Source: Bacteroidota bacterium
Lineage (GTDB): Bacteria > Bacteroidota > Bacteroidia > Bacteroidales > CG2-30-32-10
Assembly (NCBI GenBank): GCA_013377115.1
Contig: JACAAW010000012.1
Span: 1-41,980 of the forward strand
Length of the DNA stretch: 41,980 nt
Direction: 5' to 3'
The translations under genes were made by a program, and so were the position numbers. The stretch's first letter is position 1. Every line of letters starts with the position of its first letter. The notes below the pieces were generated by a model. The model was not told the DNA's origin, did not search any database, and was given only the letters and a program-made list of their open reading frames with translations. Positions 1,487 to 41,980 of this stretch are shown piece after piece.

Positions 1487-2710
1487 TTACTTTTTTTGAT
1501 GCTTTTTAGCTTCTTCAACAGAAATTCTTTCACCATTGTAAAAACCAATGACAAAAGCATCTTTATACCCTTTTTTTACCATTTCACTCAAAAGTTGATT
1601 TGCCGAGCTCAGGCTTTGTTCATCCCCAACAGTAAATTTATACGAACCTTTATGGAAATACACGTTCACATTTTGCAATCCTTTAAAATCCGAAGAATTT
1701 GTTGATTTTTTTGTAGGTGATGTGGCAAATTGTACTCGATAAGTGGCAATATCAGACGAAGGATTGGTATTGGTATTATTATTCTCGTTATTGTTCTGAT
1801 TTACATCTTCGTTTTGTTTAACCACATTGTTATACTTAACTGTGGTCGTTCCTTTCTCAACTTCTTTTTTATACTCCGAAAAAGCATTGAAAATACAAGA
1901 TGCAATCAAGTCTTGTCCCAACGAAGAAGTGATAATTCCTTCATCTTTTTGATTACTCAAAAACCCTGTCTCAATAAGAACTCCAGGAACTGTGGTTTTG
2001 TATAGCACTAAAAAACCAGCTTGTTTAACGCCCCTGTCGGTCATTCCTGTTTGCAACATATAATTCTGAACTTTCGAAGCAAAACTCAAACTCTGGTCAA
2101 GGTGTGCATTTTGATACAATGAAAATATAATATTGGCTTCCGAAGAATTGGGATCAAATCCATCATATTTCGCAGAATAATTTTCTTCCATTAAAATTGA
2201 AGAGTTTTCCTTTTTAGAAACGTCGATATTGGCTTGAGATTTATTCAAACCCATCACATAAGTTTCGAAACCATCGGGGTTTGAAGAAGGATTGGCATTG
2301 CAATGAATGGAAATAAACAAGTCGGCTTTATTTTCATTGGCAATTTGTGCTCTTTTATACAATTCGATAAATTCATCGGTTTTTCGGGTGTAAATCACCG
2401 AAATTTCAGGAAAATTCTTTTGAATATACCCACCCAATTTTAATGCTATTGAAAGCGCTACATCTTTCTCTTTGCTCTTTGAAGTGACGCATCCGGGGTC
2501 ATGTCCGCCATGGCCTGCATCAATTACAACTTTCGTAATTCCATATTTATTGAAACCAAAACTATTAAAAGATGTTAAAAAGAAAATTGAAATTATACCA
2601 AAAATTGCAGTTAATCGTTTCACCTTAACAAGTATTTTAGTTAGTTTTGCTCTTTTAAAAGAATAAGAATTTTTACAAAAATAATACATATTAAATTGTC
2701 CGCCAAACAA
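1487..2710 (-). CDS. N-acetylmuramoyl-L-alanine amidase (Amidase_3)
   Basis: VVIDAGHGGHDPGC, SIHCNA, GVLIETGFLSN motifs. The ORF-track start is TTG; a GTG at 2623 giving MKRLTAIFGIISIFFLTSFNSFG (a good signal peptide) is a more likely start. Confidence 0.9.
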   Translation of the reverse strand: MFGGQFNMYYFCKNSYSFKRAKLTKILVKVKRLTAIFGIISIFFLTSFNSFGFNKYGITKVVIDAGHGGHDPGCVTSKSKEKDVALSIALKLGGYIQKNFPEISVIYTRKTDEFIELYKRAQIANENKADLFISIHCNANPSSNPDGFETYVMGLNKSQANIDVSKKENSSILMEENYSAKYDGFDPNSSEANIIFSLYQNAHLDQSLSFASKVQNYMLQTGMTDRGVKQAGFLVLYKTTVPGVLIETGFLSNQKDEGIITSSLGQDLIASCIFNAFSEYKKEVEKGTTTVKYNNVVKQNEDVNQNNNENNNTNTNPSSDIATYRVQFATSPTKKSTNSSDFKGLQNVNVYFHKGSYKFTVGDEQSLSSANQLLSEMVKKGYKDAFVIGFYNGERISVEEAKKHQKK

Positions 2711-34492: not shown

Positions 34493-34500
34493 TACCTTTG
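34493..34500 (+). promoter_or_regulatory. -7 element TACCTTTG of cysE
   Basis: TAnnTTTG; overlaps the TTG start used by the ORF track, so the true start is likely ATG at 34519. Confidence 0.6.
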
Positions 34501-34518
34501 CACACCAATTCTAAAAAA

Positions 34519-35385
34519 ATGGATGCTAAAAAATTTGAAAATATCGTTAATGATTTAAGCGATTTAAAAAAATACGAATCTCTTTATCATTTTGCAAAAA
34601 ATGAAGAACCCCTTCCTTCAATTGAAAACCTTACCACTATTGTTGAAGATATAAAAAAAGTTTTATTTCCTGGTTTTTTTGGTCAGTCGGAACTAAAAGA
34701 AGAAACCATCAATTACTATATTGGAACCAAACTGGATGTCATCAACCGTTCTTTGGCAGAACAAATCAGACGAGGATTTTGTTTTTCATGTAATAAGTCC
34801 GATTTAAATTGTATTGATTGCGAGAAACGGTCTAAAGAAATTTCAGACCAATTCATTTCGAATATTCCTAAAATAAAAAGTTTATTGGCAACGGATGTGA
34901 TTGCAGCATTTAATGGAGATCCTGCCGCCAAGAATTATGGTGAAACGATTTTTTGTTATCCAAGCATTGTTGCAATTACCTATTACCGAATCGCACACGA
35001 ACTTTTAGAATTGGGTGTTGAATTAATTCCACGTATCATTTCAGAGATGTCGCATTCAAAAACTGGTATTGACATTCATCCAGGCGCAACCATCGGCGAA
35101 TACTTTTTCATTGATCACGGAACCGGCGTTGTAATTGGAGAAACAACCATAATAGGGAAAAATGTTCGCATTTATCAAGGAGTTACTCTTGGAGCAAAGA
35201 GTTTTCCACTCGACGAAAATGGCAAGCCCATCAAAGGAATTGCCCGCCATCCAATTATCGAAGATGAGGTAACTATTTATTCAAATGCCACCATTCTTGG
35301 CCGAATTACCATTGGCGAAGGTGCCACAATTGGCGGAAACCAATGGGTAACAGAAGCTGTTGTTGCGAAAACGAAGGTGAATTAA
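34519..35385 (+). CDS. cysE: Serine O-acetyltransferase
   Basis: Left-handed beta-helix hexapeptides; IDIHPGATIGEYFFIDHGTGVVIGET, GVTLGA. Start moved from 34498 (TTG) to the ATG. Confidence 0.93.
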   Translation: MDAKKFENIVNDLSDLKKYESLYHFAKNEEPLPSIENLTTIVEDIKKVLFPGFFGQSELKEETINYYIGTKLDVINRSLAEQIRRGFCFSCNKSDLNCIDCEKRSKEISDQFISNIPKIKSLLATDVIAAFNGDPAAKNYGETIFCYPSIVAITYYRIAHELLELGVELIPRIISEMSHSKTGIDIHPGATIGEYFFIDHGTGVVIGETTIIGKNVRIYQGVTLGAKSFPLDENGKPIKGIARHPIIEDEVTIYSNATILGRITIGEGATIGGNQWVTEAVVAKTKVN

Positions 35386-35401
35386 TTTAATAAAAAATCA
35401 T

Positions 35402-35827
35402 ATGTCTTACACTCGAATACTTCTTCATGCTGTTTGGGCAACAAAAGACCGCAAAAAATATTTGATAAAAGAGAATAAAAACCTCTTATGTAATCACATC
35501 CACGAATATTGCAAAACAAAAGACATTCATTTGATTAATATTAATGGCTTTGAAAATCATTTACATTGTTTAATTTCAATGTCTTCTGGCCAAAATATTG
35601 CCACAATAATGAATTTGATAAAAGGAGAATCTTCGTTTTGGGCAAATAAAAACTTAATATTAAATGAAAAATTTGGTTGGCAAGATGATTATTTTGCGGT
35701 TTCTGTGAGTCAATCTCATGTTAATATTGTAAATGATTATATCAATAGCCAAGAAGAACATCATAGAAAAAAAACTTTTCAAGAAGAATATGATGAATTT
35801 ATTAAGAATTATCATTTTGAAGAATAA
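35402..35827 (+). CDS. REP-associated tyrosine transposase (RAYT) / IS200-IS605 Y1-HUH transposase
   Basis: YTRILLHAVWATKDRKKYL, HUH motif NHLHCLI, Tyr in VNIVNDYINSQEEHH. Confidence 0.9.
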   Translation: MSYTRILLHAVWATKDRKKYLIKENKNLLCNHIHEYCKTKDIHLININGFENHLHCLISMSSGQNIATIMNLIKGESSFWANKNLILNEKFGWQDDYFAVSVSQSHVNIVNDYINSQEEHHRKKTFQEEYDEFIKNYHFEE

Positions 35828-35828
35828 A

Positions 35829-35840
35829 GGGCTAAAGCCC
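35829..35840. repeat. Short palindrome GGGCT-AA-AGCCC right after the RAYT stop
   Basis: Direct reading. Confidence 0.75.
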
Positions 35841-35988
35841 TAAATTTATTAAAAATCCTCTAATAGCCCCGACCTTAAGGTCGGGGCTATTTTATTAACA
35901 ATACATTTTTGCAGGGCTTCAGCCCTTTAATCCTAAACTCAATACATTCCGATCTGAAAAGGTTGTTGCGAAAACGAAAGTGAATTAA
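35838..35988. repeat. 151-bp dispersed repeat, copy A (palindromes plus cysE tail)
   Basis: Gapless by-eye alignment to 41564-41714 with 8 mismatches. Contains the perfect 30-nt palindrome AATAGCCCCGACCTTAAGGTCGGGGCTATT (35862-35891) and hairpin AGGGCT-TC-AGCCCT (35913-35926). Confidence 0.9.
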
Positions 35989-36196
35989 ATTTTGAAATAA
36001 GGAAAAACACAAAGAAAAAAGATCGCAATAATACTTAAAAGGGACGTAATCCAAAACACCATTATTTGGAAATTTTTTATTGTTTCTAAAGGATAAAATC
36101 CAAGAGTTTTGGCAAGCTTTTTCAAAATAATCTTAAATATAAACGGTTCTTTCGGGGAATTTGCATCGTTAATGAATATTCTTATATCGTATTTTA

Positions 36197-37951
36197 TTAA
36201 AACAATAAGACCTTTTTTACAGATACTTTATTGTCTGTAAAAACTCTTACAAAATAAGTTCCCTTAGCAATATTTGACAAATCAAAACTTACGGATCCAG
36301 ATACATTTTGTTTGGAAGCCACAATAATTCCCATGATATTTATTATTGAAATATCTGCTTCCGAAACATTATCAATGTATATCATATCCATTGTTGGATT
36401 TGGATAAATCGAAAACAAACTATTTTTGTTATCAGTTAATTCATTATTGCCAGTTATAATAGAACAGGAGCCTTCATTATATTTAGCAATGAAAATATCA
36501 ATATCCCCGGCTGACACTAAATTCTGGGCCATCGCTCCTGGGTCAAAATCCGCGGTATTATTATACCCGCCTGTAATAATCATTTGTGTTGCAGTTAATG
36601 CAAGTCCGTTTAACCTATCATTACCGGTTCCACCATAATTACCGGCACATATAAAAACTCCATTGGAATCCAGCTCACATGTAAATCCATCCAAACCACC
36701 AGCAGTAGTTAAATTATATATCCCTCCATCTGGATCAAAATCATTTGTCCCGCTAAAAGTTCCGGCTAAAAAAATATTGTTATTATCATCCAGTTTTATT
36801 CTGTATGCTGCCTGATCGTACATTGCCCCTGCCGAGCCACCCATTTGTTTTGCAAAAATAAAATTTCCGGCAGCATCCAATTTGCTCACATAAATTGAAT
36901 AGCCTCCTAATGCAACAATATTTTGTGTCCCGCCATTTGGATCAAAATTAAGGGTACCAGAAAATTGTCCAGAAGTATAAATGTTGCCATGGTTGTCAAG
37001 TGTTATTCCATAACCTATTCCAACGCTCATTCCCGAGGCAGCAAGAGTTTTTGCAAAAATAAAATTACCTGATGCATCTAATTTGCTTATATATGACCCT
37101 CTAGGCAAATTGTAAGTAGCTCCACTGGGATCAAAATCAGTTGTGGCAAATGTATATCCTGTTGTATAAACATTATTTGTTGCATCGGTTGCAATTCCTA
37201 ATCCACGGCTCTCCTCATTGGGAACGACAGCATCAAATTGTTTAGCCCAAATCCATGCACCTGATATTCCATTGAGTTTTGCTACATATGCATTATTATT
37301 TACCCCTCCAGTAGCCTCTAAAATAATAGATACTCCAAAAAAATCTTTACCATCATGATAACCTGTTATATAAACATCACCCATTGCATCAGTTGCTATT
37401 GCCGCTGCATCCGTAAAACTGTTGCCAACAGCATAATTTGACCATATAAAATTACCTGAAGGATCTAATTTAACAACAAAGTTATTAAACAAAGTTCCAC
37501 CAGCTGTCATATTTTGTACAGTTGGACCCGGATCAAAATCACAGGTTCCGTAAAACCATCCACAGACTAAAATATTTCCCGATGCATCCAAGCAAAGGTC
37601 ACGACATAAACCTTGGCCTCCAGAGGGATTCCCAACACCAATAGCTTTTGCCCACACTAGACTCCCTGCTGCATCATATTTACAAACATAAGACGCAGCT
37701 GGCATTGTGCCCGTATGTATATTCGTGACTCCAGTTCCAGGATCAAAATCTATTACACCTGTAAAGGTGCCAGCGACATAAATATTTCCTGCCAAATCAG
37801 TTACAACTGATTTTCCTAAATCTAATCCACTGCCTCCATATGAATTCGCAACATTGTACGCAGGCTGTGCAAATAATCCTTGGGAGCAATATGCAATACC
37901 AGCAATAAAAAAACTCATTTTAATAATTTTTTTTAGAATGTTTGATTTCAT
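36197..37951 (-). CDS. SBBP/beta-propeller-like repeat protein with T9SS type A sorting domain
   Basis: Repeated G(N)IYxxGxFxGxxDFDPGG..N(I/L)..G blocks; C-terminal SIYPNPTMDMIYIDN...GTYFVRVFTDNKVSVKKVLLF. Confidence 0.85.
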   Translation of the reverse strand: MKSNILKKIIKMSFFIAGIAYCSQGLFAQPAYNVANSYGGSGLDLGKSVVTDLAGNIYVAGTFTGVIDFDPGTGVTNIHTGTMPAASYVCKYDAAGSLVWAKAIGVGNPSGGQGLCRDLCLDASGNILVCGWFYGTCDFDPGPTVQNMTAGGTLFNNFVVKLDPSGNFIWSNYAVGNSFTDAAAIATDAMGDVYITGYHDGKDFFGVSIILEATGGVNNNAYVAKLNGISGAWIWAKQFDAVVPNEESRGLGIATDATNNVYTTGYTFATTDFDPSGATYNLPRGSYISKLDASGNFIFAKTLAASGMSVGIGYGITLDNHGNIYTSGQFSGTLNFDPNGGTQNIVALGGYSIYVSKLDAAGNFIFAKQMGGSAGAMYDQAAYRIKLDDNNNIFLAGTFSGTNDFDPDGGIYNLTTAGGLDGFTCELDSNGVFICAGNYGGTGNDRLNGLALTATQMIITGGYNNTADFDPGAMAQNLVSAGDIDIFIAKYNEGSCSIITGNNELTDNKNSLFSIYPNPTMDMIYIDNVSEADISIINIMGIIVASKQNVSGSVSFDLSNIAKGTYFVRVFTDNKVSVKKVLLF

Positions 37952-38068
37952 TTTTATCTTTTTAGAATGAATTTAAGTGGGCCCTGATTATTTTTAGTGA
38001 AAAGTTGAAATAAATCGAAGAACCCGCTAATCGATTTCCCAACATCTGGTTTAAATTTTATTTCTAGC

Positions 38069-39835
38069 TTACTGTTTAATAAACTTTTTTTGCAATCCTC
38101 CATTCTTGTTTCCAACTTTTAAAAAGTAAAAACCTTTTGCAATTGTATTTACATCAACAGTGAATAAATTATTTCCTTCTGAAGCAATAGTTGGCTCATG
38201 ATAAACTAATTTACCACACACATCATAAACAGAAATGTTAATATTTTCTTCACTTAAAGTAGAATATTGAAAACCCAAATTATTTTCGACAGGATTATTT
38301 AGCAAAGTTAGTTCGGCAGGCGTATTTTCACCACAATCAGACTTTATTTGAATGGGTCCAAAATATTCAAATTTACCATCGTAATCTGTTTGTTTCAGAC
38401 GATAGAAATTAATTCCATGCAAGGGTGATTCATCAGTCCATTTATAATTTAAAACCTGATTGCTATTGCCGGCCCCATCAATTGTACTTAAAACATCAAA
38501 ATCCTTTCCATTCTTCGAACCTTCAATGGTAAAAAAATCATTATTTATTTCTGAAGCTGTTGACCACTCAAGCTTTATTGTATTTTCATTAATACAATCA
38601 CCATTAAATGATAAGAGTTCTATTGGCAGAACACCGCATAATGGAGCCGTTTGACAAGATGCATAATCGTTTACAACATGCCAATTAAATGGATTAGCTG
38701 AGGCGACAAATGTCATGTTGGTTGAAAGAGGACTGACAAAATAACCTTGCGCAGTTGAAGTATATACATTTCCTCCGATTACTGCAAATCCAGCACCACC
38801 TGCTGTAACTGGAGCCAATGTTAAAGTCCCAGAACATAATAATGATCCAGTTGGAGTAAAAACACGAATTTGCTGGGGAACATCAGTATTAAATATGTAA
38901 ATATTCCCATCCGTATCGACATTCAAATCAATTGGACCTGCAAAAGCTGTAAACCCTGGTATCGTCATCCAAAAAGTTGCATTTCCTGTTCCATTATACC
39001 TGTAAACATCTCCTGTGGAACCATTTAAATTATAAATATAACCACCTCCACCACCTGGATTAGTGTAAGCTGCGGTTGGACCTGCTGTATGACCTGTATT
39101 AATCCATGTATTAGTTACTGCATTCCACCACCAATAGGTCATTGTTGTTGAATTAATGGTATAATATGTGGGAGAAGTTGTTCCACCATTAATATTTGGA
39201 CAAAGAGTCAAACCTTTAAAAGTGCTATTTGTCAAAGGAATTGTATTTACCGGATTGGTTCCTGAAATTGGCAAACTAGGATCATAAAGACTTATCACAT
39301 TCCCGGATAATCCCGCTATTTGTGAACAACTAGCAATTGTGTTATTTAGAGCATTAGTTACACATACTGATGTTGGAGTAAAATCAGAATTTGCAAAATT
39401 CATCACTCTAAAATAATAAGTTGTTCCAATTGTCAAACCACTGCTGAAACCAACTGATTCTATTTGACCTGTTGTTGTGTATAAGTCTGCCTGAGCACAA
39501 CCTATTTCTGCTAAACCCGCACATGCACCAGAAAAAACTTGAATACCGGGTTCATTAGTTGCACCAGCAGGTGTGATGACGGTAATCGTTGCATTCGTGC
39601 TTGTGGCAACAAAACGATACCAACCTTCTCTTCGAATTATAGCTCCTGTGCATGAAGGTGCAAATCCTGCCGTAATTGTAGCATCATTAATAAGTCCTGA
39701 ATTGCATGCACCATTTACAGTTATTAAGGTTGCAGAGGCACATGTTGTTCCTTGTGCTTTAATATTATTAGAAAAGAATAAAAATAGAAATAGTATTAGC
39801 AAAACGCTTTTTATAATTTTTTTTGTTTTTTTCAT
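38069..39835 (-). CDS. Secreted protein with T9SS type A sorting domain
   Basis: Signal peptide; PIELLSFNGDCINENTIKLEWSTASEINNDFFTIEGSKNGKDF; C-terminal NPVENNLGF...GFYFLKVGNKNGGLQKKFIKQ. Confidence 0.85.
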   Translation of the reverse strand: MKKTKKIIKSVLLILFLFLFFSNNIKAQGTTCASATLITVNGACNSGLINDATITAGFAPSCTGAIIRREGWYRFVATSTNATITVITPAGATNEPGIQVFSGACAGLAEIGCAQADLYTTTGQIESVGFSSGLTIGTTYYFRVMNFANSDFTPTSVCVTNALNNTIASCSQIAGLSGNVISLYDPSLPISGTNPVNTIPLTNSTFKGLTLCPNINGGTTSPTYYTINSTTMTYWWWNAVTNTWINTGHTAGPTAAYTNPGGGGGYIYNLNGSTGDVYRYNGTGNATFWMTIPGFTAFAGPIDLNVDTDGNIYIFNTDVPQQIRVFTPTGSLLCSGTLTLAPVTAGGAGFAVIGGNVYTSTAQGYFVSPLSTNMTFVASANPFNWHVVNDYASCQTAPLCGVLPIELLSFNGDCINENTIKLEWSTASEINNDFFTIEGSKNGKDFDVLSTIDGAGNSNQVLNYKWTDESPLHGINFYRLKQTDYDGKFEYFGPIQIKSDCGENTPAELTLLNNPVENNLGFQYSTLSEENINISVYDVCGKLVYHEPTIASEGNNLFTVDVNTIAKGFYFLKVGNKNGGLQKKFIKQ

Positions 39836-39992
39836 CTCATAATAATTTTCAACAAAACTAAAGTGGTAGAATCCAGTTCACAAACCAATATTATTCTTAA
39901 GTAGTATGAGACAACAAGCACAATCTCTCCTATATACCTGTTTTTCTTGTCCTTATGTCTTTTTTAAAGGAAATTAATTCTATTGGTACTTA

Positions 39993-40023
39993 TTGCTATT
40001 TCAAAAAACAAATCTTATTTTTG
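39993..40023 (+). promoter_or_regulatory. TTG-N20-TATTTTTG promoter immediately before the ATG at 40028
   Basis: Matches Bacteroidetes consensus; predicted TSS falls at or next to the start codon. Confidence 0.45.
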
Positions 40024-40027
40024 CTTA

Positions 40028-41527
40028 ATGAAGAAACCATCTAATCAAGTATTTATTCTTGTTAAATCATTAGACTCGCATGAAAAAACCTTTATTAAGC
40101 GCTGTCTTCATAAAGAATCAAAATCATCCATAAATGAAGATTTATTTGATTATCTGTGTTCCCAATCAGAATACAATGAGAATAAAATGCTTTTGTCGGT
40201 TAAAAAAATTAAGAAAAGTACCGTTAAACATTGCAAACAAAATATTTTTGATTTCATTCTCAAATCACTTGAACTATATTACGCTGGGTCAACCACAGAA
40301 CAAAAACTAAATCGGGCGCTATTTCAAGTCAGGATGCTAAAAAAAAAGAAGATGTTTTCGAAAGCCAACAAACTAATCCTCTCATCAATAGAAATAGCAG
40401 AAAAGTCAGGTCACTTTTTATTGCAACTGCAGTTTATCGCAGAACAGCAGCTATTAGAAATTGAAAGTGAAAACATTGCAGATTACGAACAGTTTTTTTT
40501 GAAAAACTCATTTGCAAAGGAAAAATTGCTAAATTCATATATTAATGCGCAACAAAATCAAGAGAAAATTCATTTATTACGAAGGTTAAATATTAAGGAT
40601 GGTTGTTATCCGGAAAATGAAAAACATCAAATAACTAAAAAGATTAATTCAGATATCATCCTGAAATCAAATTCAAATGAAACTAGAAATACCTTCATTG
40701 TTTTACAAGAAAATTTTATTGAATACTATTGCCTTTTATTGCTAAATGAATATTCTAAATCAAAAGAATGTTTTAAAAGGTATTTAAATTTATATGAAAG
40801 GTTTAACGAAAAAATCGAAAACCCTGAAGAATATTTATGGCATTTACATGTGGGTATTACCATTAGTATTTTTACTGATGACAAGAATTTGCTTTGGGAA
40901 TTAGATAAAAAAGCTGATAATCTATTAACCGCGCTGCAGGTAAAATACAAAAATACTGAGGTATTGGTAAATTATATCATTGTAAAAAATAATGTAATTG
41001 CTTTTTTAACACATGATGAGGATTTTCAGGAAGCAAGCATTAGATCTGAAAGTTTAAAGAGTGTTATTCTTACAACTAAAGTAAAGCCTAGTATTAGAAA
41101 AATATTTTTAGCTAATTTATGTCAAACTTATTTGTGCAATGGTGAAACCAGAAAAGCTTTGCAATGCTATAATTTGCTAAATAATAACCATGAATATCAA
41201 AATATTCGGAATGATATTGATCCAGGTATGAACGTTTTGGGTTTAGCAATTTTCTTCGAATTAGATTCTCATGAAAATATTGAAAGTTTAGTCAGAAGTT
41301 GTAAAAGAAAGATAGACTTCAAATTGCAAAGCAAAATTTATCATCACCTTATTAGCTTCTTTTCTGAAGCAATAAAAACAAATGAAAAGCCAAAATTAAA
41401 ATTATTGTTTGAAGATATTTTACAAAAAATAAATTCTATTGAAACTAGCGATTCAGAATCCGTTTTCTTTCTTGAAAACACTTTGATTGGTGCATGGCTG
41501 AGAAAAAAATTCAAATTTCTAGTTTAG
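40028..41527 (+). CDS. Uncharacterised helical (TPR-like) protein starting MKKPSNQVFILVKSLDSHEKTFIKRCLHKES
   Basis: Long helical protein; N-terminus resembles a Bacteroidetes family of unknown function. ATG at 40028 preferred to 39983. Confidence 0.65.
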   Translation: MKKPSNQVFILVKSLDSHEKTFIKRCLHKESKSSINEDLFDYLCSQSEYNENKMLLSVKKIKKSTVKHCKQNIFDFILKSLELYYAGSTTEQKLNRALFQVRMLKKKKMFSKANKLILSSIEIAEKSGHFLLQLQFIAEQQLLEIESENIADYEQFFLKNSFAKEKLLNSYINAQQNQEKIHLLRRLNIKDGCYPENEKHQITKKINSDIILKSNSNETRNTFIVLQENFIEYYCLLLLNEYSKSKECFKRYLNLYERFNEKIENPEEYLWHLHVGITISIFTDDKNLLWELDKKADNLLTALQVKYKNTEVLVNYIIVKNNVIAFLTHDEDFQEASIRSESLKSVILTTKVKPSIRKIFLANLCQTYLCNGETRKALQCYNLLNNNHEYQNIRNDIDPGMNVLGLAIFFELDSHENIESLVRSCKRKIDFKLQSKIYHHLISFFSEAIKTNEKPKLKLLFEDILQKINSIETSDSESVFFLENTLIGAWLRKKFKFLV

Positions 41528-41563
41528 GTTTTTGCCATTGGGAAACCTCAAAATCTTCTAAAC

Positions 41564-41714
41564 CCCTAAATTCATTTAAAATCCTCTAATAGCCCCGTCC
41601 TTAAGGTCGGTGCTATTTTATTAACAATACATTTTTGCAGGGCTTCAGCCCTTTAATACTAAACTCAATACATTCCGATCTGAAAAGGTTGTTGCAGAAA
41701 CGAAGGTGAATTAA
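41564..41714. repeat. 151-bp dispersed repeat, copy B (no transposase)
   Basis: 8 mismatches, no gaps to 35838-35988 by eye; ends GTTGTTGCAGAAACGAAGGTGAATTAA (41688-41714). Confidence 0.9.
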
Positions 41715-41753
41715 AATATCTAATTGTCTTTTACATAATGTCATAGTGTGTGC

Positions 41754-41819
41754 CAAATCGATGGGAAATCCATGGGAGATCCAAGGTTAATCCATGGCTA
41801 ATGCATGAAGAGTGCATGA
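41754..41819. repeat. Degenerate tandem array, 6 units of exactly 11 bp (CAAATCGATGG GAAATCCATGG GAGATCCAAGG TTAATCCATGG CTAATGCATGA AGAGTGCATGA)
   Basis: Direct reading; no indels between units. Confidence 0.85.
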
Positions 41820-41825
41820 AAAACA

Positions 41826-41858
41826 AAAAGGGATTCTGCATAAAACAGAATCCCTTTT
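41826..41858 (-). terminator. 13-bp-stem hairpin terminator
   Basis: AAAAGGGATTCTG (41826-41838) / CAGAATCCCTTTT (41846-41858), T-rich on both strands; just past the stop of a minus-strand ORF. Confidence 0.8.
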
Positions 41859-41879
41859 CTTTTACAAAAGTATCTTAGA

Positions 41880-41980
41880 TCAAAAATATAATTTATAATA
41901 AACCATAGGCGAAAACCCAAGTTGATATTGGTTTTCAACAGTTTGCTTTTGTCTATTATAGGTTTGCATTAACACATTTT
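41880..41980 (-). CDS. C-terminal fragment of a probable outer membrane beta-barrel protein, truncated by window edge
   Basis: Minus-strand ...VLMQTYNRQKQTVENQYQLGFSPMVYYKLYF*, alternating pattern and terminal Phe. Confidence 0.5.
   Translation of the reverse strand, partial: NVLMQTYNRQKQTVENQYQLGFSPMVYYKLYF

Follow-up and report, generated by a model that had tools for sequence, protein, structure and literature searches.

A REP-like hairpin composite beside a Y1 transposase with the subclass 1.2 signature in Bacteroidota, and its second copy ending in a duplicated cysE tail

The REP, REPIN, and BIME systems with their RAYT (TnpA-REP) partners consist of short palindromes, dispersed mostly outside genes and in inverted pairs, around a single-copy Y1 HuH gene that palindrome number tracks. 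To our knowledge, the spread of REP palindromes is still unexplained. Mobility has been demonstrated for none of the REP transposases (PMC8266576). Subclass 1.2 of the TnpA-Y1 enzymes, as classified by Quentin et al. in 2018, occurs in Bacteroidetes and Cyanobacteria, is low-copy, generally lacks IS-type hairpins, and is tabulated with REPs absent (PMC6006769). IS200/IS605 elements such as IS608 and ISDra2 encode Y1 HuH enzymes, carry hairpins on either side of the gene, and are reported without target duplication (PMC7290912). The Helitron Helraiser offers a documented case of a HuH enzyme reading through a 3′ hairpin (PMC4778049).

The window analyzed here, a stretch of 41,980 nucleotides, is an entire contig (C24) of a 4.0-Mb Bacteroidota genome assembled in 296 contigs. 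It holds a Y1 HuH gene directly behind cysE, with the following features at this end of the locus:

34498 to 35385, forward strand: cysE (serine acetyltransferase), an intact ORF with an ATG-start translation from 34519 and a hexapeptide Pfam match
35359 to 35385, forward strand: native cysE tail of 27 bp, encoding VVAKTKVN and a stop, delimited by sequence comparison
35386 to 35401, forward strand: 16-nt leader ahead of the transposase gene, preceded by cysE here and by a left REP pair in relatives
35402 to 35827, forward strand: Y1 HuH transposase of 141 aa with the signature YINSQEEHH (Pfam Y1_Tnp, E 3e-26; motif survey)

The transposase carries the motifs NHLH, WQ, and YINSQEEHH, the last of which fits the Y---Q--HH signature of subclass 1.2, whereas the Y motifs known from RAYTs are absent. 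It also agrees with that subclass in its HuH motif, its presence in Bacteroidota at few copies per genome, and its length (141 aa, compared with approximately 145-148 aa). It resembles ISHp608 TnpA, the closest solved structure, and shares with IS200/IS605 a Y1 HuH enzyme and hairpins on either side of the gene; unlike in those elements, near-identical gene copies are absent, as the remaining Y1 genes in this genome are only 42, 35, and 29% identical. A survey with a slightly relaxed pattern found the subclass 1.2 signature in 151 of 155 relatives. Among the 70 relatives that are at least 42% identical, GC-rich hairpins lie on both sides of the gene in 46 and inverted similarity extends across the gene in 52. 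The usual order in relatives is large-small-gene-small-large; the window lacks the left pair and has cysE in its place. Inverted REP-like hairpin pairs likewise accompany the subclass 1.2-signature genes L061 and L062 and the relatives L075-L103 across Bacteroidota. The closest transposase relatives found (L304-L306, 62-66% identity) lie outside the class of the window, while the best match within its own order reaches 58%, which hints that the transposase may have been acquired by horizontal transfer.

The hairpins around this gene are not confined to it. An exact pattern search for the small hairpin returned 29 sites genome-wide, compared with none for a reversed control pattern, and the large-hairpin pattern has 14 further matches. 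Most of the inspected sites are single REPs in which a small and a large hairpin are separated by 20-30 nt. As in REP/REPIN families, the palindromes are short and GC-rich, form inverted pairs, are dispersed mostly outside genes, and flank a Y1 gene. In a comparison of 295 genomes from the order, small hairpins number 12 per genome in the median where a close transposase relative is present (n=40), 2 where the relative is weaker, and 0 where there is none; the Mann-Whitney p value of 2e-14 between the extremes overstates independence because the genomes are related by descent. Taken at the level of sequence, the hairpins look like a family of REPs for which the Y1 gene encodes the cognate transposase. 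The family differs from described REP/RAYT systems in having two different hairpins per unit, approximately 29 sites in place of hundreds, and no GTAG or CGTC tag beside either hairpin in copies A and B (described below) or at the inspected sites, as judged by eye. Subclass 1.2 in Bacteroidota has flanking and dispersed REPs, contrary to the 2018 description, in which the subclass generally lacks terminal hairpins and has no REPs. A literature search, which was not exhaustive, found no description of such a partnership, and that REPs in Bacteroidota are linked to transposases of subclass 1.2 is apparently undescribed so far. This link carries the wider interest of the locus and, if it holds, fills a gap in the 2018 classification.

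Downstream of the transposase lies a REP composite followed by sequence that is foreign to the family. This block, copy A, is repeated 5.7 kb away as copy B:

35828 to 35841, forward strand: copy A, first small hairpin AGGGCTAAAGCCCT (folding, hairpin survey)
35862 to 35891, forward strand: copy A, large hairpin AATAGCCCCGACCTTAAGGTCGGGGCTATT (folding, hairpin survey)
35913 to 35926, forward strand: copy A, second small hairpin AGGGCTTCAGCCCT, in left-end orientation (hairpin survey, pattern search)
35926 to 35961, forward strand: copy A, 36-nt spacer, unique to A and B (genome BLASTN)
35962 to 35988, forward strand: copy A, duplicated cysE tail with 1 mismatch (BLASTN, ungapped comparison)
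39983 to 41527, forward strand: gene upstream of B, intact, 514 aa (ORF; a relative aligns over residues 12-510)
41558 to 41715, forward strand: copy B, whole match to A, 158 bp at 94% identity
41588 to 41617, forward strand: copy B, large hairpin, its stem mismatched at two positions (alignment, folding)
41640 to 41651, forward strand: copy B, second small hairpin GGGCTTCAGCCC (pattern search)
41652 to 41687, forward strand: copy B, 36-nt spacer (alignment to A)
41688 to 41714, forward strand: copy B, duplicated cysE tail with 2 mismatches, encoding VVAETKVN and a stop (alignment)

Copies A and B share as their core a small-large-small hairpin composite of the same type as flanks the Y1 transposase. 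Copy B runs from the first small hairpin through the end of the tail, so that it includes 63 bp of flank that lie past the final hairpin of A and are not REP sequence, and leaves out the transposase; across the genome it matches A with an E value of 1.3e-65. The original prediction had noticed a gapless match between 35838-35988 and 41564-41714 with 8 mismatches, and ungapped comparison gives exactly 8 in 151 positions. An assembly artefact was considered and is unlikely, as A and B differ at these 8 sites and their flanks differ on either side. Copy B has decayed since copying: its hairpin stem contains mismatches and it folds no better than shuffled sequence (z-score -1.0, compared with -6.3 for A). 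A search for structured RNA found no Rfam family within 35300-41980. Unlike a MITE, B has no repeat in its flanks when the surroundings are compared, and apart from the hairpins it lacks terminal repeats.

Both copies finish, as had been proposed, in the 27 bp derived from cysE. This tail, GTTGTTGC..AAACGAA.GTGAATTAA, occurs three times in the genome, namely in cysE, A, and B. It is a genuine piece of cysE, since VPANTKV, VPPDSKI, and similar endings are found at the C-terminus of serine acetyltransferase relatives, and cysE is the source of the duplicated tail. Relatives of cysE are present in 46 of 60 genomes; none of those compared at this locus exceeds 70% protein identity, the downstream gene order is not conserved, and the search turned up no close relative whose site is empty. 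No match was found in plasmids, and viral contigs lacked exact matches to the spacer-tail pattern; a phage or plasmid origin was rejected on these grounds.

The tail stays outside the dispersed family. Of the 29 exact small-hairpin sites, those in A and B alone have the spacer and tail, and the flanks of the 17 sites that were inspected, 14 of them beyond A and B, contain neither. BLASTN of the A block against the genome likewise returned full copies at A and B alone, the remaining strong matches besides cysE being hairpins only; this is the outcome that the original prediction had itself set against a mobile unit ending in the cysE tail, and it applies to the entire family. With hairpins at 29 sites but the tail, outside cysE itself, confined to A and B, the repeat family is real and does not include the cysE tail. 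What endures of the proposed REP- or MITE-like unit is a REP palindrome core tied to the adjacent Y1 transposase, with B as a partial copy that has cysE sequence but no transposase; the tail as the end of the unit finds no support. A weaker form of the latter idea survives because the similarity of A to cysE and that of A to B stop at one shared point, directly after GTGAATTAA.

The right half of both copies is open in the cysE frame, AGLQPFN(P/T)KLNTFRSEKVVA(K/E)TKVN and a stop, exactly as first read. This frame, which crosses spacer and tail, lacks a start codon, and a frame of such length has a chance of approximately 12% at this base composition. The suggestion that the unit could supply genes with a ready-made C-terminus finds no counterpart in the genome: B is extragenic behind an intact gene, its first matching base lying approximately 30-31 nt past the end of the 514-aa gene, and neither it nor any other copy forms an in-frame fusion. 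The cysE tail shows no sign of a coding role in A or B.

Of the accounts that can be given for the doubled tail and copy B, the one preferred here stands at roughly an even chance. The right part of the transposase/REP cassette behind cysE would have been copied a second time, to B, and have decayed there, with the tail doubled first and then copied by HuH read-through. In a first step, arrival of the cassette behind the cysE stop codon would have duplicated the last 27 bp to the far side, and cysE would have remained whole because its tail was duplicated on arrival. The reappearance of REP composite, 36-nt spacer, and cysE tail 5.7 kb away without the transposase, which is seen directly, would represent the second step. 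In the third, the HuH transposase would have moved the REP composite, perhaps passing the right hairpin to reach the next acceptable site, GTGAATTAA at the end of the tail. Decay of B would have followed, as visible in its mismatched large-hairpin stem. In favor of this account, spacer and tail are confined to A and B while the hairpins recur at 29 exact sites, the layout of composite and transposase matches that of relatives, and hairpin numbers track close transposase relatives. If the third step is right, it resembles Helitron 3′ read-through as described for Helraiser (PMC4778049), in which a HuH enzyme passes a 3′ hairpin and carries flanking host DNA; the Helitron enzyme is, however, a eukaryotic Rep-helicase transposase, whereas the enzyme here is a 141-aa Y1 protein and no member of the Helitrons. 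Two published observations speak against this account: IS200/IS605 enzymes are reported to leave their target unduplicated (PMC7290912), and mobility has been demonstrated for none of the REP transposases (PMC8266576). The cassette here has the cysE tail on both sides, the second of which would have originated on arrival as outlined above.

The strongest competitor, which we consider possible although somewhat unlikely, is a plain local duplication in which template switching, illegitimate recombination, or palindrome gene conversion carried the 158 bp from A to B and the transposase was uninvolved. Palindromes provoke template switching, there are just two copies 5.7 kb apart on one contig, and the other REP sites lack the tail. 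Against this stand the edges of B, of which the left coincides with the edge of the REP composite and the right with the end of the cysE tail. That both fall at meaningful places favors a copy made by the enzyme over a random local duplication, yet one event cannot settle the matter, and a single copying event is no proof of enzyme involvement. The tail-bearing copy is a single hitch-hiking event, most likely the work of the neighboring transposase, and not a general carrier of gene tails.

Integration of a circle is improbable. Here a circular cassette that already contained a cysE tail would have recombined with the tail of cysE, leaving one tail per side. The order of cysE tail, leader, transposase, right REP, shared large hairpin, left-type small hairpin, spacer, and cysE tail is indeed a circular permutation of the order in relatives, and the 16-nt leader is similar to the start of the spacer. 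Such an event, however, requires prior capture of the tail, and 27 bp are short for homologous recombination; in other genomes, small-large-small composites also lie downstream of the transposase (L197 and L188), so that simpler explanations for the order exist. A standing non-autonomous mobile unit with the cysE tail as its right end is very improbable and largely refuted in this genome, as A and B do have the tail and right boundary in common but the other small-hairpin sites and REP-type matches lack both spacer and tail.

Returning to the preferred account, in which the arriving cassette doubled the tail, comparable duplications were sought as non-REP direct repeats bracketing the transposase gene at 161 loci, 152 of which are long enough. 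Such repeats were found at 7 of 152 loci, the window included, compared with 3 of 358 control windows (Fisher p = 0.01), figures to be read with thresholds set after the first cases, non-REP status assigned partly by eye, and controls mostly from other phyla. L194 was excluded from the count as ambiguous. The loci other than the window are:

L223 (G147:C114), 1090-1122 and 2213-2245, reverse strand: 33-bp repeat that covers one gene's stop and the following gene's start, bracketing transposase and REPs
L211 (G242:C119), 1058-1208 and 1952-2102, reverse strand: 151-bp repeat at 93%, including the tail of the upstream gene
L328 (942-1142 and 2364-3416) and the related L322, minus-strand gene: 3′ tail of approximately 170-200 bp on the far side of the transposase
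L292, 1155-1350 and 2182-2381: approximately 200 bp of coding sequence resembling YD-repeat proteins on either side of the transposase
L234: counted among the bracketing duplications

Gene tails are duplicated at four of these loci (L223, L211, L322, and L328), of which L322 and L328 probably reflect one event; their tail gene reads as glucose-6-phosphate dehydrogenase, a putative name taken from the translation. L223 closely parallels the doubling of the cysE tail. A stricter filter keeps 3 of 84 loci, namely the window, L223, and one REP match, which leaves two clear cases and makes the higher count threshold-dependent. Another Y1 gene of the window's genome, L063 (G000:C133), has on either side a weak 22-bp repeat at 86% (reverse strand, 1381-1402 and 2086-2107; ITKDYYL compared with VTKEFYL), which takes in the end of the upstream gene and was left out as possibly due to chance.

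A more general proposal, put forward tentatively and rather doubtful as it stands, is that subclass 1.2 enzymes of Bacteroidota move dispersed two-hairpin REPs, and that insertion at a junction duplicates 25-200 bp of neighboring sequence, often the 3′ tail of a gene. The gene would thereby be spared and a surrogate right end supplied, so that REPs would occasionally carry gene tails to new sites. The bracketing gene-tail duplications offer a testable hint of how cassettes may settle beside genes without breaking them, and a REP copy with a recognizable piece of a host gene, such as B, marks the position of one end of the copied DNA.

The interval between A and B is mostly occupied by two minus-strand genes with type IX secretion sorting tails (36197-39835). 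Close to the contig end and just past copy B, positions 41755-41797 hold 3.9 copies of an 11-bp tandem repeat, AAATCCATGGG, and a terminator-like hairpin lies downstream of B at 41825-41859.
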